A stretch of 64,000 nt of DNA from Clostridia bacterium (GTDB lineage: Bacteria > Bacillota > Clostridia > Oscillospirales > Acutalibacteraceae). Both the position numbers and the translations under genes were made by a program. Shown here piece after piece: positions 24,678-28,896 of the stretch. Under the pieces are notes generated by a model. That model had not been told where the DNA came from and made no database searches. It was given only the letters and a program-made list of their open reading frames with translations. The first letter of the stretch is position 1, and each line of letters opens with the position of its first letter. The DNA is taken from assembly GCA_017548045.1 (NCBI GenBank), contig JAFYNR010000057.1, forward strand, positions 1 through 64,000. The letters are read 5' to 3'.

Positions 24678-24754
24678 GCGCTGCTAGCTCAGCTGGATAG
24701 AGTGTTTGGCTACGAACCAAAAGGTCAGGGGTTCGAATCCCTTGCAGCGCGCCA
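24678..24754 (+). tRNA. tRNA-Arg (anticodon ACG)
   Basis: A 77-nt cloverleaf: acceptor GCGCTGC/GCAGCGC, D arm GCTC...GAGT, anticodon stem TTTGG/CCAAA with loop CTACGAA (anticodon ACG, read as ICG), T arm AGGGG-TTCGAAT-CCCTT, discriminator G and encoded CCA. It is followed directly by an intrinsic terminator. Confidence 0.97.
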
Positions 24755-24755
24755 A

Positions 24756-24792
24756 TCAAAGGATACGGATTTTTCCGTATCCTTTGAATTTT
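24756..24792 (+). terminator. terminator of tRNA-Arg
   Basis: TCAAAGGATACGGA (24756-24769) and TCCGTATCCTTTGA (24774-24787) form a perfect 14-bp stem, then ATTTTT. Confidence 0.9.
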
Positions 24793-24798
24793 TAAAAA

Positions 24799-24814
24799 CT
24801 GCAAGGGATTCGAA
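24799..24814 (-). repeat. inverted copy of the tRNA-Arg T arm/acceptor strand
   Basis: CTGCAAGGGATTCGAA is the exact reverse complement of 16 nt of the tRNA-Arg gene (24732-24747). The match is too long to be chance at this distance and implies a tRNA-derived rearrangement. Confidence 0.7.
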
Positions 24815-24825
24815 AGGGCGTAAAG

Positions 24826-24849
24826 AAAACGCTTCGGGGAAGCGTTTTT
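24826..24849 (+). terminator. hairpin with T tract downstream of tRNA-Arg
   Basis: AAAACGCTTC (24826-24835), loop GGG, GAAGCGTTTT (24839-24848), T. A second terminator-like hairpin inside the tRNA-derived region. Confidence 0.6.
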
Positions 24850-24927
24850 AGCCCGTCGAGTTGATTATAGCTTACGCAGACCGCAAGCAACCGAAAGTCG
24901 AGCACTATGGAAATTTAATCAACATTC

Positions 24928-24943
24928 CCCTTGCAGCGCGCCA
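24928..24943 (+). repeat. direct duplicate of the tRNA-Arg 3' end
   Basis: CCCTTGCAGCGCGCCA repeats the last 16 nt of the tRNA gene (24739-24754), 189 bp downstream, and is followed within two bases by another strong terminator. This is the pattern expected of an attachment-site scar at a tRNA 3' end. The 189-bp interval between the copies holds no gene; it has the hairpins listed and an inverted pair GTTGATTA (24860-24867)/TAATCAAC (24916-24923). Confidence 0.7.
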
Positions 24944-25119: not shown

Positions 25120-25146
25120 AAAAAAATAAAGGGGTCTTACGACCCC
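25120..25146 (-). terminator. minus-strand terminator-like hairpin
   Basis: GGGGTC (25131-25136), loop TTAC, GACCCC (25141-25146), with A-rich DNA at 25120-25130 that reads as a U tract on the minus strand. No minus-strand gene is visible directly upstream of it; the region 25032-25271 otherwise shows only two short palindromes (CGCATATGCG at 25188 and GTGCAC at 25205) and no coding frame. Confidence 0.5.
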
Positions 25147-25271
25147 CAACACTTCAATGATAACTTATTATCTTTCAAAAGTCAATACGCATATGCGAAA
25201 TTATGTGCACAATAACCAAAAATCTCTGTTTTACATAATTGCAGAGGGTTAACTTTGTACAAAATTCCGTC

Positions 25272-25300
25272 TTGAAAACCCTGAAAATCTGTGCTATATT
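25272..25300 (+). promoter_or_regulatory. promoter of the candidate structured RNA
   Basis: TTGAAA (25272-25277), 17-bp spacer, TATATT (25295-25300). Predicted start at about 25307. Confidence 0.65.
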
Positions 25301-25476
25301 ATAGTCAAGGAAAGGGTGATACCAATGAGAAGGTAAAAACCTCAGAACTCTGAAGATAATCGGAAAATCAAAAACCGAAAATCAAAAAGTTCTGACCGAC
25401 AATCTTGAATGAAACGAAAATATTAATCGTAAACTTTAGGATTGGACAATACCGCAGAAAGAGAGGTTAACCAAAG

Positions 25477-25506
25477 ATGTTAGATAACAAGAATTCACAG
25501 AAGTAA
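25477..25506 (+). CDS. nine-residue leader-type peptide inside the structured RNA
   Basis: ATG at 25477, ten bases after AAAGAGAGG, encodes MLDNKNSQK and stops at TAA 25504-25506. The last three codons and the stop overlap the 5' arm of the terminator stem (25499-25513), so a ribosome there would block terminator folding. This geometry resembles an attenuator leader peptide, but no downstream gene is in position to be controlled. Confidence 0.4.
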   Translation: MLDNKNSQK

Positions 25507-25556
25507 CCCTTGATTGATTGTGTAAAGAAACATCAGTCAAGGGTTACTTCTTTTTT
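25499..25556 (+). terminator. terminator of the structured RNA
   Basis: AGAAGTAACCCTTGA (25499-25513) pairs perfectly with TCAAGGGTTACTTCT (25537-25551), followed by TTTTTT. The 23-base loop contains a second TTGAT/ATCAG pairing option. Confidence 0.88.
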
Positions 25557-25572
25557 ATATTGAAACTGTTAT

Positions 25573-25602
25573 CGTTGAAGCCGCGAGGCTTCGGCGTTTT
25601 TT
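25573..25602 (+). terminator. extra plus-strand terminator
   Basis: CGTTGAAGCC (25573-25582), loop GCGA, GGCTTCGGCG (25587-25596; two G-U pairs), T6. It immediately follows the previous terminator. Confidence 0.8.
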
Positions 25603-25702: not shown

Positions 25703-27766
25703 TTACAGTTTCATTGCGATATCCCATGCACCCCAGATAACGGTACGGAGATTGCCGACCTTAGCAGCATCGCCGATAACGTGAACGTGCTTTGCTTTGG
25801 GAGCAACGGGTGTGGGAACATAACCGACTGACATAACAACGGAATCCGCAGGGATTTCAAAAGTCTTGCCTTCCTTATCCTTAACGGTTACGCTGCCGTC
25901 ATTGATTGCGCAAAGTGATGTTTCAAGATGAACGGGAACTTTGTTTGTCTTGAAGAAGTCACGAAGGAAGCTTGTGTTTGCAAGTGCAACACCGGGTGTT
26001 GTAACAAGGTCATCCTGCATTTCAACGATTGTGGGCTTCTTACCCTGAAGGTAAAGGTCGTAAGCGATTTCACAGCCTGTAAGACCGCCGCCGATAACAG
26101 TTACGTTTTCGCCGACTTCCTTGTTGCCGAGAAGGTAATCAACCGCTTCAACGGTCTTTTCAACACCGGGAACGGGGATTGTTCTTGCCTTTGAACCGGT
26201 AGCAACGATAACCTCGTCTGCACCCAGTGCGGCAATATCCTTAACCTCTGTGTTCATATGAATTGTGATTGCGCTGTATTTTTTAACCTCGCGGTTGTAC
26301 CATGCGATAAGGTCACGGTCCTTCTCCTTGAATGAGGGAGCAGCAGCTGCAATGAATACGCCGCCAAGCTTGTCGCTCTTTTCGTAAAGGTCAACCTTGT
26401 GGCCTCTCTTTGCGCAAACGATAGCTGCTTCCATACCGCCGATACCGCCGCCGATGATTGCAACATTCTTTGATTTCTTTGCGGGCTTGATGCTGTATTT
26501 CTTTGACTGCATTGTCTGGGGGTTAAGAGCACAGCGTGAAAGACCCATTGTATCCATAAGGTCCTGAGTGTTTGCGTGACCCTTTGATGATGAGAAGTTG
26601 AAGCAAGCACTGTGACAGCAGATACAGGGCTTGATATCTTCGATTCTGTCCTCGATAAGCTTTGTAACCCATTCGGGGTCGGTAAGGAACTGACGTGCAA
26701 CACCTACGCCGTCAATCTTGCCCTCTGCAACAGCCTTTGCACCTTCGTCGGGTTCCATACGGCCTGCGCATACAACGGGAATATCAACAAACTTCTTGAT
26801 GTGTGCAACGTCCTCAAGGTTACAGTTCTGAGGCATATACATGGGGGGATGTGCCCAGTACCATGAGTCGTATGTACCGTTATCGGCATTGAGCATATCA
26901 TAGCCCATATCCTGAAGGTACTTTGCAGCCTTTTCGGATTCTTCCATTGCACGGCCTACTTCCGTGTAATCTTCGCCGGGCATTGCACCTTCGCAGAAGC
27001 CCTTCATCTTTGACTCAACAGAGTAACGGAGTGAAACGGGGTAATCGTCACCGCAGGATTCTTTGATAGCCTTAACAACCTCAGCGGCAAAACGGTATCT
27101 GTTTTCAAAGCTTCCGCCGTATTCGTCGGTACGCTTGTTGAAAAATTCGATTGCAAACTGGTCAAGAAGGTAGCCTTCGTGAACAGCGTGAACCTCAACA
27201 CCGTCAACACCTGCGTCACGGCAGAGCTTTGCGGTTTTTGCAAATGCTTCAATGATTTCGTGAATCTGCTCAACCGTCATTTCGGGGCAGATGATATCGT
27301 GTGCCCAACGTGAGGGCTGGGGGCTGGGAGATGCAAGCTCGTGTGAAGTGTCGAGAATGGGCTTCACGAGTGCACGGGTGAATTTATTTCTGTGAAGGGG
27401 AGCAACAAGCTCGGTGATAGCCCATGAACGGCCCATACCTGCTGTAAGCTGAACAAAAAGCTTTGCTCCTGTCTTATGGATTTCATCCATAAATACTTTA
27501 AGCTCTTCGAACATCTTGGGGTTCTGCCAGAGCCACTTGCCCCAGAAAGTATCACGGAGGGGTGCGATACCGGGGATGATAAGACCAACGTTGTTGTTGG
27601 CTCTTTCAAGGAAAAGCTTTGCCGCTTCCTTGTCAAAATGGCAGCCGCCGAGCTCAAACCAACCGAAAAGCGATGTGCCGCCCATAGGGCACATAACGAT
27701 TCTGTTTTTGATTTCAACGTTGCCGATTTTCCAGGGAGTAAACAATGCTTCATACTGCTGATTCAT
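25703..27766 (-). CDS. Old-yellow-enzyme family NADH:flavin oxidoreductase (BaiCD/FadH type)
   Basis: A 687-aa, three-domain flavoprotein. Residues ~1-375 are the FMN TIM barrel (LFTPWKIGNVEIKNRIVMCPM, GVDGVEVHAVHEGYLLDQF with the catalytic His/Tyr region, VPVVCAGRM). CICCHSACF...LSRCALNP (about 384-415) carries [4Fe-4S] cysteines. An FAD domain (VAIIGGGIGGMEAA, about 428-441) and an NAD(P)H domain (VTVIGGGLTGCEIAYDL) follow. Relatives are 2,4-dienoyl-CoA reductase, enoate reductases and the bile-acid Delta4-reductase BaiCD; the substrate here is unknown and no other bai gene is present. Start at 27766 (MNQQYEAL) is supported by GGAAGTGG; the longer frame to 27889 has no ribosome site. Monocistronic. 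Confidence 0.9.
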   Translation of the reverse strand: MNQQYEALFTPWKIGNVEIKNRIVMCPMGGTSLFGWFELGGCHFDKEAAKLFLERANNNVGLIIPGIAPLRDTFWGKWLWQNPKMFEELKVFMDEIHKTGAKLFVQLTAGMGRSWAITELVAPLHRNKFTRALVKPILDTSHELASPSPQPSRWAHDIICPEMTVEQIHEIIEAFAKTAKLCRDAGVDGVEVHAVHEGYLLDQFAIEFFNKRTDEYGGSFENRYRFAAEVVKAIKESCGDDYPVSLRYSVESKMKGFCEGAMPGEDYTEVGRAMEESEKAAKYLQDMGYDMLNADNGTYDSWYWAHPPMYMPQNCNLEDVAHIKKFVDIPVVCAGRMEPDEGAKAVAEGKIDGVGVARQFLTDPEWVTKLIEDRIEDIKPCICCHSACFNFSSSKGHANTQDLMDTMGLSRCALNPQTMQSKKYSIKPAKKSKNVAIIGGGIGGMEAAIVCAKRGHKVDLYEKSDKLGGVFIAAAAPSFKEKDRDLIAWYNREVKKYSAITIHMNTEVKDIAALGADEVIVATGSKARTIPVPGVEKTVEAVDYLLGNKEVGENVTVIGGGLTGCEIAYDLYLQGKKPTIVEMQDDLVTTPGVALANTSFLRDFFKTNKVPVHLETSLCAINDGSVTVKDKEGKTFEIPADSVVMSVGYVPTPVAPKAKHVHVIGDAAKVGNLRTVIWGAWDIAMKL

Positions 27767-27802
27767 TGAAAACCACTTCCTTAATAAAATGTTAACAGAT
27801 AT

Positions 27803-27831
27803 ATAATAGAGTATTTGATTGTCGATGTCAA
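27803..27831 (-). promoter_or_regulatory. promoter of the flavin oxidoreductase gene
   Basis: Minus strand: consensus TTGACA (27831-27826), 17-bp spacer, TATTAT (27808-27803). Confidence 0.8.
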
Positions 27832-27843
27832 GGAGTAAAAAAC

Positions 27844-27882
27844 AAAAAGAGGACTGTTTTGCCTGAAAAACAAAACAGTCCT
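27844..27882 (-). terminator. terminator of the GH2/GDPD operon
   Basis: AGGACTGTTTTG (27850-27861) and CAAAACAGTCCT (27871-27882) form a 12-bp stem; A tract on its plus-strand left side. Confidence 0.85.
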
Positions 27883-27888
27883 TCGTCA

Positions 27889-28896
27889 TTATTTACATTC
27901 TCCGACAGCGGCATACACTCTTTCGGGGTTATCGGTGATTATGCAGTCGGCACCGTTGAGGGTAAGGGTTCTCACTTCTTCCTCATCGTTGATTGTCCAG
28001 TACTGAACCGCAATATCGTTGCCGTGGGCATAATTCAGCATTTCTCTTGTGCCGAGGTTGATAAGGTTGTCAAAGGCACTTGAGCCGTAGGGTATCTGCA
28101 GCGCAACGTAAGAGGGGCTTACGTCCTGCAAATTCCAGTTCATTCTGAAATAGAAATAGAACTGAACCGCTTCGATTGCGTCTGCCGTTCTTGCAATTTC
28201 GGGGTATTCTGATTTCATATATGCAGAAACATCGGGTGCAAAGGTTGACCAGATAACTCTGTCCTGCAGGTTACGTTCTTTAATGATTGAATAAAGCTTA
28301 TCAACCGCTTTTCTGCCGTTTATGCCGATGCTTTTTACTTCAATTAAGTATCTGTATTCCTTGTCTGCGGTTGCTTCAACGTAATCAATAACACCGTCGC
28401 AGGTTGCAACGTGCAGGTTATAAGGAATATCGTCACCTCTTAATCCTCGGTAAGGGTAATCGCCGCTGCCCTTGAAGTTTTCACCCATATTGAGCTGCAT
28501 TGCCTCTTCGAGAGTAAGCGACGAAACAAAAATATAATTTCTGCCGTAAAGCTCCGTTGCGTTTGAAGTGCCGTCGTAGGTAAGGTCGTGGTGAAGCACA
28601 AGCTCACCGTCCTTTGTTACCTGAACGTCAAATTCAAGGGTATCAACGCAATCCGAATTCTCAACTATATTTTCAAATGCCATAAGGGTGTTCTGAGGAG
28701 CAAGACCTGCGCCCGAGCGGTGAGCCGCAATGTCGGGGTCAAGGTATTCGTTGATGTAGGAATTTGTGCAGTCGGGATATACAACGGGTGTTTCGGGGTC
28801 GCCTGCATCGCCCATAGTCAGAAGAACGGGAATGAGCATTGCGGCGGCGACGAAGCCGTTGAGAATGTTTTTGATTGTTAAAAATATTCCTGCCAT
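27889..28896 (-). CDS. membrane-anchored glycerophosphodiester phosphodiesterase
   Basis: A 335-aa GDPD-family protein, hydrolysing glycerophosphodiesters to glycerol-3-phosphate and an alcohol. Catalytic features: AHRSGAGLAPQNTLMAF (the HR motif, about 60-76), TLEFDVQVTKDGELVLHHDLTYDGTS with metal ligands Glu/Asp and the second His, and LIEVKS. The N terminus (FLTIKNILNGFVAAAMLIPVLLTM) is a single hydrophobic anchor, so the enzyme probably faces outside. ATG at 28896 overlaps the upstream stop (tgATATG) with GGTG seven bases before; a GTG at 28905 is less likely. It closes the GH2-lipoprotein-propeller operon, suggesting a glycerophosphoryl-substituted glycan or lipid substrate. Confidence 0.88.
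   Translation of the reverse strand: MAGIFLTIKNILNGFVAAAMLIPVLLTMGDAGDPETPVVYPDCTNSYINEYLDPDIAAHRSGAGLAPQNTLMAFENIVENSDCVDTLEFDVQVTKDGELVLHHDLTYDGTSNATELYGRNYIFVSSLTLEEAMQLNMGENFKGSGDYPYRGLRGDDIPYNLHVATCDGVIDYVEATADKEYRYLIEVKSIGINGRKAVDKLYSIIKERNLQDRVIWSTFAPDVSAYMKSEYPEIARTADAIEAVQFYFYFRMNWNLQDVSPSYVALQIPYGSSAFDNLINLGTREMLNYAHGNDIAVQYWTINDEEEVRTLTLNGADCIITDNPERVYAAVGECK

Follow-up and report, generated by a model that had tools for sequence, protein, structure and literature searches.

The question raised by this locus is what an RNA built like an attenuator leader is doing at a site where no gene downstream appears to be left for it to regulate. In the window (the whole 64,000-nucleotide stretch of DNA that was analysed), the sequence-only reading had described a promoter, a hairpin-rich RNA with a terminator, a frame encoding MLDNKNSQK whose stop lies inside the 5' arm of that terminator and, further downstream, a second terminator followed by a convergent gene. 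All of these parts were found in place (Table 1), the hairpins being seen in the predicted fold of positions 25316-25556; the terminator stem, however, which had been put at 15 bp, is about 20 bp in the predicted fold. Other parts had been overlooked, i.e., the mini-frame ORF1 with its Shine-Dalgarno region SD1, a divergent promoter with its own terminator, and a second copy in the window's own genome (G000:C8:11261-11444), which lies at a contig end. The A/T palindrome next to the promoter is one that we take to resemble an UP element, and the convergent gene is presumably oxidoreductase-like, judging from its sequence read by eye without a family search. A hairpin like that of the second terminator, T2, is present in six aligned copies from the genus.

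Table 1. Features of the locus, with positions in the window; asterisks mark stop codons.
Feature	Positions	Strand	Basis or remark
Predicted tiny divergent transcript, TGTTGGGGG + hairpin (25130-25147) + T-run	25120-25151	-	little beyond a terminator
Divergent promoter, TTGACT-17-TATCAT	25157-25185	-	also alignment of 24 loci
A/T palindrome, TTTGTACAAAATT, immediately 5' of the -35 element	25254-25266	+	alignment and consensus of loci
Promoter of the long RNA, TTGAAA-17-TATATT	25272-25300	+	predicted start ~25307
Predicted RNA 5' end and extended Shine-Dalgarno region SD1 (AAGGAAAGGGTGATACC)	25307-25323	+	16S-tail duplex -16.0 kcal/mol
ORF1, three codons, ATG AGA AGG TAA (MRR*)	25325-25336	+	frame behind the very strong SD1
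Helix H1, arms TCAGAACT/AGTTCTGA	25342-25349/25388-25395	+	predicted fold and covariation in relatives
Helix H2, arms CAATCTTGAA/TTTAGGATTG	25400-25409/25434-25443	+	predicted fold and covariation in relatives
Shine-Dalgarno region SD2 (AGAAAGAGAGG)	25456-25466	+	16S-tail duplex -15.9 kcal/mol, window copy
ORF2, nine codons, MLDNKNSQK* (ATG...TAA)	25477-25506	+	codon conservation in the family
Terminator T1 and T-run	25499-25556 (hairpin 25499-25551)	+	ORF2 stop in 5' arm; loop with GTGTAAAGAAACA
Second terminator T2	25573-25602 (hairpin 25573-25596 + T-run)	+	read in the sequence
Convergent gene	25703-27889	-	next gene 3' of T2

It is well supported that positions 25307-25556 belong to an RNA family that Rfam does not contain. 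R1, a covariance model built from 21 sequences of the 3' module (SD2, ORF2 and T1), matched 14 of the 45 genomes of the genus (4 of the 15 of good quality), 70/394 of the order, 21/391 of the class and 1/398 of the phylum, the last being the window's own genome; that genome is included in each of the counts for genus, order, class and phylum, and the samples overlap in nearer kin. The homologues in Clostridia that would be expected of a new structured RNA were thus recovered in genus, order and class, and the window locus and 15 relatives had no Rfam 15 family at gathering score. Lax Rfam searches with the window locus and with locus L097 gave weak matches far below the cut-offs, mostly to eukaryotic microRNA models. 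Genomes carry up to 4 copies, and tandem copies occur. The window sequence itself matched 23 of 148 genomes, its own included, two of them (G002 and G022) through the promoter region alone. When named genomes were scanned with the ORF2 pattern, the matches listed were metagenome-assembled genomes, mostly from gut and rumen, and those among the matches listed were titled Oscillospiraceae, Ruminococcaceae or Clostridia. In the literature, the string 'LDIKSEQK' had no match; papers on structured RNAs of Clostridia, on their short ORFs and on uORFs in attenuation listed no recognisable member, the family was not recognised in work on Shine-Dalgarno-based stability and trans-acting attenuators, and passages of PMC8040213 and PMC2965389 held no match to it, although the locus may be listed without a name in supplementary tables.

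Established RNAs were rejected as identities for the locus. The sole match of the 6S RNA model RF00013 in the genome is elsewhere (C18:23187-23389); the sole above-cut-off match of the tmRNA model RF00023 is at C58:61203-61551, and 0 of its 9 matches fall on C54; and SD1 resembles a T-box core by eye, yet has no Rfam match.

The ORF1 counts below start from 160 matches, which were reduced to 151 rows after removal of duplicates and short upstream stretches, and then to 137 members after 9 with a promoter score <11.5 and 5 near-duplicates were dropped; 2 of 91 locus matches, cut off by the locus end, were left out. Because loci L133-L212 (80 used of at least 118 stretches) were chosen by a pattern in which several codons of ORF2 are set in advance, the ORF2 codon counts were taken from the members derived from the covariance model, a set that was found with a model of 21 members and contains them. 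The distinct members number 87 in the codon tally and 88 in the terminator tally, since the two tallies compared sequences of different lengths when duplicates were removed.

The fold of the RNA (25316-25556) is 8.2 standard deviations below that of dinucleotide shuffles, and 0/200 shuffles were as good; with the terminator removed (25316-25495), z falls to -2.5 and 2/200 shuffles were as good, so most of the fold signal is the terminator. The two further helices that the sequence-only reading had named were borne out by compensatory changes in the genus, both arms changing together: the arms diverge widely while pairing is kept (AGAACT/AGTTCT, GAGAC/GTCTC, GAAGGA/TCCTTC and GAAAAC/GTTTTC). 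At least six contiguous pairs were found for H1 in 16 of 18 genus copies and for H2 in 18 of 18, in an arm-by-arm test; for H1, the arms of L007 were placed wrongly and L014 gave only 5 pairs. When partners were shuffled among the 18 copies, the mean number reaching six pairs was 8.4 for H1 and 14.6 for H2; the H2 count by itself is therefore uninformative, and the summed pairing scores of H1 and H2 were matched by 0/200 partner shuffles. RNAalifold, run on an alignment of members, recovered H2 without H1, and H1 was then tested arm by arm. Outside the genus the middle of the RNA is variable in length and sequence, and a common fold sought among 18 members sharing CACGGCGGTG was almost absent. 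The longest helix of T1 runs to 19 contiguous pairs at the median among the distinct members derived from the model; GTAAAGAA is carried by 40/88 members, GTGAAAGA by 9/88 and neither by 39/88, and a second terminator lies within 75 nt beyond T1 in 25/88. It should be noted that any terminator would show some of the covariation seen in T1. Judged by eye, neither SD1 nor SD2 seemingly keeps a pairing to a terminator arm across members.

The coding of ORF2 is well supported as conserved at the codon level, its translation being a prediction. The general form is MLDxK(S/N)xxK*, and the D.K core is kept in frame by 86 of 87 distinct members, the exception being MIEPNNEER*. Leu is encoded by TTA (75), CTA (4), CTG (3) or TTG (3), with ACA, which is not a Leu codon, once; Asp by GAT (83) or GAC (3); and Lys by AAG (76) or AAA (10), such that the codon changes are synonymous at these positions, one Leu position excepted. 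Length varies by whole extra codons (MM in 19, MT in 5, MK in 4, plus 3 with TTG or GTG starts); L051, one copy of a tandem pair, has ORF2 frameshifted near its end. The stop codon lies inside the 5' arm of the terminator in all 87 recognisable frames (TGA 42, TAA 36, TAG 9), and the last codon may thus be shaped by the terminator stem, the LDxK part being outside it. Taken together, these data make a codon-level case for a nine-codon gene, of a size that the cut-offs of gene finders would skip. They also speak for a rival reading, in which the ORF2 peptide, MLDIKSEQK or nearly so in other orders, is itself the product and the RNA its messenger: loci elsewhere in the class encode MLDIKSEQK or a close variant, the frame is conserved by codon and varies by whole codons, and a leader peptide is able to act in trans in another bacterium (PMC7298713). 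We nevertheless regard a nine-residue micropeptide gene as unlikely: ORF1 would be superfluous in the mRNA of a single peptide, as would a middle that has covarying helices and can reach several hundred bases, and codons 4 and 6 to 8 are loosely constrained in a tally that mixes model-derived and pattern-derived sets.

The 5' end of the RNA carries a second minimal frame. ORF1, sought by a regular expression as an ATG frame of at most 14 codons, was detected in 119 of 137 members; it has three codons or fewer in 111 of these and exactly three in 96, with MYR* the commonest form. Of the remaining ATG frames in these RNAs, limited in the same manner to 14 codons, 77/231 are that short, or 77/376 when every other ATG is counted. 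The expression accepts an ATG only if a C precedes it and a stop follows within 14 codons, and so leans to short frames; wrong promoter calls may also have led to the misassignment of a few frames. No frame was detected by it in 18/137 members, several of which (such as L050, L194, L183 and L199) have no ATG at all at the predicted 5' end; ORF1 is therefore usual, not universal. Four copies of tandem pairs (L113, L122) have an ORF1 of 13 codons, such as MYTKRQSPKVTGR*, and 18 loci from other parts of the class have 5' ends such as GGTACAGTCCAATG AGA AAT TAA. The 5' end of L105 bears two Shine-Dalgarno and mini-frame sites in tandem, and that of L093 three Shine-Dalgarno-like repeats, two of them with an ATG.

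Both frames lie behind strong predicted ribosome sites. For the 25 bases before each start, the duplex with the 16S tail has a median of -16.0 kcal/mol at ORF1 (n=119) and -13.9 kcal/mol at ORF2 (n=131), compared to -9.3 kcal/mol at the best ATG of 45 open frames of more than 250 codons, a control from one window in which frames run stop to stop, the best ATG in the first quarter is taken, which favours the control, and frames without an ATG count as 0. The 16S tail, GGAUCACCUCCUUUCU, was taken from the carrier genome G415; a 16S gene was sought in the window's own incomplete genome, where it was not found, and in three relatives, where it was found in one. Very short frames may commonly have strong Shine-Dalgarno regions. 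With two such strong sites, each ahead of a minimal frame, the RNA could also serve as a sink that holds initiating ribosomes or 30S subunits, for example during slow growth. The predicted strengths and the near start-stop ORF1 are consistent with such a sink, as is the promoter with its conserved A/T palindrome, which might mean high expression; but the codon conservation of ORF2 and the covarying helices would be left unexplained, and we consider this quite unlikely.

The promoter on the other strand was set against its counterparts in the family. In the window it runs into a hairpin and T-run some 30 bases on. Of the 131 members whose promoter has a 17-base spacer and scores ≥12.2, 128 were used; TGTT[AG]G follows the divergent promoter in 73 of these, 45 of which also show a hairpin and T-run further on, and the hexamer alone occurs in 78/128 loci vs 16/128 reversed strings. 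The divergent unit, in the window (25120-25185) and in relatives, is a promoter going straight into a terminator with TGTTGG conserved. Terminators facing both ways, a patchy presence in the genus, and several copies per genome, some in tandem, might describe an accessory or mobile-like element, an insulated cassette that is copied to several places in a genome and serves no function in the cell. The constraint on coding and on helices argues against it. Furthermore, viral contigs gave no exact match to the ORF2 pattern (one exact, restrictive pattern) and phage and plasmid records no blastn match, on which grounds a phage or plasmid origin was rejected; we hold an element of this kind to be improbable.

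The neighbourhood of the RNA was tallied with tandem copies and related species counted apart, and with genes taken as the longest open frames instead of annotations. The next gene is convergent in 75 and co-directional in 54 of the 129 loci with a usable one, and no downstream family was found in more than a few loci; the RNA is therefore generally not controlling the gene that follows. The orientation of usable upstream genes is split 64 to 63. The short frame and ribosome site just 5' of a terminator, the stop in its 5' arm and the 54/129 co-directional genes would suit a leader-peptide attenuator of the classical kind, acting in cis on the gene behind it, but this is very improbable given the 75/129 that are convergent, the lack of a downstream family beyond a few loci and, in the window copy, T2 and a convergent gene where a co-directional structural gene would stand.

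The most recurrent neighbour is an XRE-TPR regulator, found under 8 locus identifiers (L045 and L161 being one contig, judging by length) of 151 member rows. In genus loci L045-L048 and L062 its gene is divergent and adjoins copies of the MNR*/MYR* type; in the window it is 1 kb away, beyond a tRNA gene. A peptide-receptor pair of the XRE-TPR (RRNPP-like) kind was considered and rejected, as the regulator is not beside the peptide gene throughout and occurs under those 8 identifiers only. In the region of the tRNA gene (24678-24943), a second copy of the tRNA 3' end (CCTTGCAGCGCGCCA) lies about 190 bases further on, and as sequence this duplicate has the pattern that integration of an element would leave.

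A second unnamed RNA of the genus, here called RNA-B, has a promoter and 5' end nearly identical to those of the window RNA. In 13 of the 14 loci viewed it carries a Shine-Dalgarno region and a frame of 15-16 codons opening with ATGTAC, such as MYSAEHQLAAAESDR*; the loci are L056-L061, L281-L284, L286 and L287 (L061 and L286 being divergent variants), together with G000:C18:22462-22627, minus strand (L280), in the window's own genome, about 0.6 kb from 6S RNA. No Rfam match above cut-off was found for L058, and no tmRNA by ARAGORN for L058 or L061. Beyond the shared promoter, RNA-B is present in 12/14 genus genomes with the window RNA vs 6/31 without it, a comparison in which some matches are weak and which shared ancestry may explain.

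Among known systems, the dual-function small RNAs SgrS/SgrT and SR1 are, like this RNA, free-standing units that combine a regulatory RNA with a small ORF; their peptides are several times longer than that of ORF2. They act by base pairing with targets; the likeness of the present RNA to them is one of layout. 6S RNA and tmRNA are likewise free-standing RNAs tied to transcription or translation, but both are at separate loci of their own in the window's genome. The peptide peTrpL reportedly comes from the trp operon leader and is said to be longer than that of ORF2, and we know of no start-stop frame for it. It is an attenuator-derived leader peptide of Sinorhizobium meliloti that works in trans, and offers a precedent for trans action by a leader peptide (PMC7298713). 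In layout, the RNA is also like the vmlR leader of Bacillus subtilis, in which a three-codon uORF, MIN (variants MDN, MDK and MRK), gates termination (PMC9226507). Both have a three-codon frame with a strong Shine-Dalgarno region at a 5' hairpin, followed by hairpins and an intrinsic terminator, and three members of the present family (L253, L260 and L264) share the vmlR variant MRK*. However, vmlR regulates an ABCF gene downstream (PMC9226507), where no consistent downstream gene is present here, and a second conserved frame of nine codons overlaps the terminator here.

The best explanation, to which we give a probability of roughly 0.4, is that the locus is a free-standing RNA gene of a new Clostridia family, probably loaded with ribosomes at both ends, and most likely a trans-acting, translation-gated RNA. 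The family and the anatomy of the RNA are well supported; we infer the regulatory output. With its own promoter and terminator the RNA stands free, as the sequence of a dual-function small RNA would, and the earlier suggestion, that a regulatory RNA stands here by itself and perhaps also encodes a micropeptide, agrees with the family, the helices and the context, regulation and translation being putative. In the proposed mechanism, ribosomes would load at both ends of the RNA. As the three-codon uORF of vmlR does so in cis (PMC9226507), ORF1 may sense or hold initiating ribosomes, and a ribosome held there would remodel or shield the 5' end; a ribosome on ORF2 would open the terminator hairpin at its base. 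The state of translation would thereby be read out in the form, length or lifetime of the RNA, and the variable middle, or the ribosome held, would act on other molecules, the RNA or its peptide working in trans. So conceived, the RNA would be a leader-peptide attenuator that has become independent of any gene. The patchy distribution in the genus (14/45 genomes) counts against this explanation, as do the members that lack ORF1 and the differences in the middle between lineages.

More tentatively still, the family may represent a new class of free-standing RNA machine, i.e., an insulated cassette with a ribosome at each end, on the near start-stop frame at the 5' end and on the nine-codon frame in the terminator, and an exchangeable structured payload between, in which the state of translation switches a trans-acting RNA. 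The consistent downstream gene that defines attenuators is absent and no Rfam family matches; the RNA may yet prove to be an extreme dual-function small RNA. Attenuator-like parts, a three-codon frame like that of vmlR and a peptide frame that stops inside a terminator, are conserved across part of a bacterial class with no consistent downstream gene, which the logic of leader peptides does not predict. The coordinates given here, in many gut bacteria, can be used for ribosome profiling or RNA-seq, and if the reading as an RNA machine is true, few conserved genes known in bacteria would be as small as ORF2.
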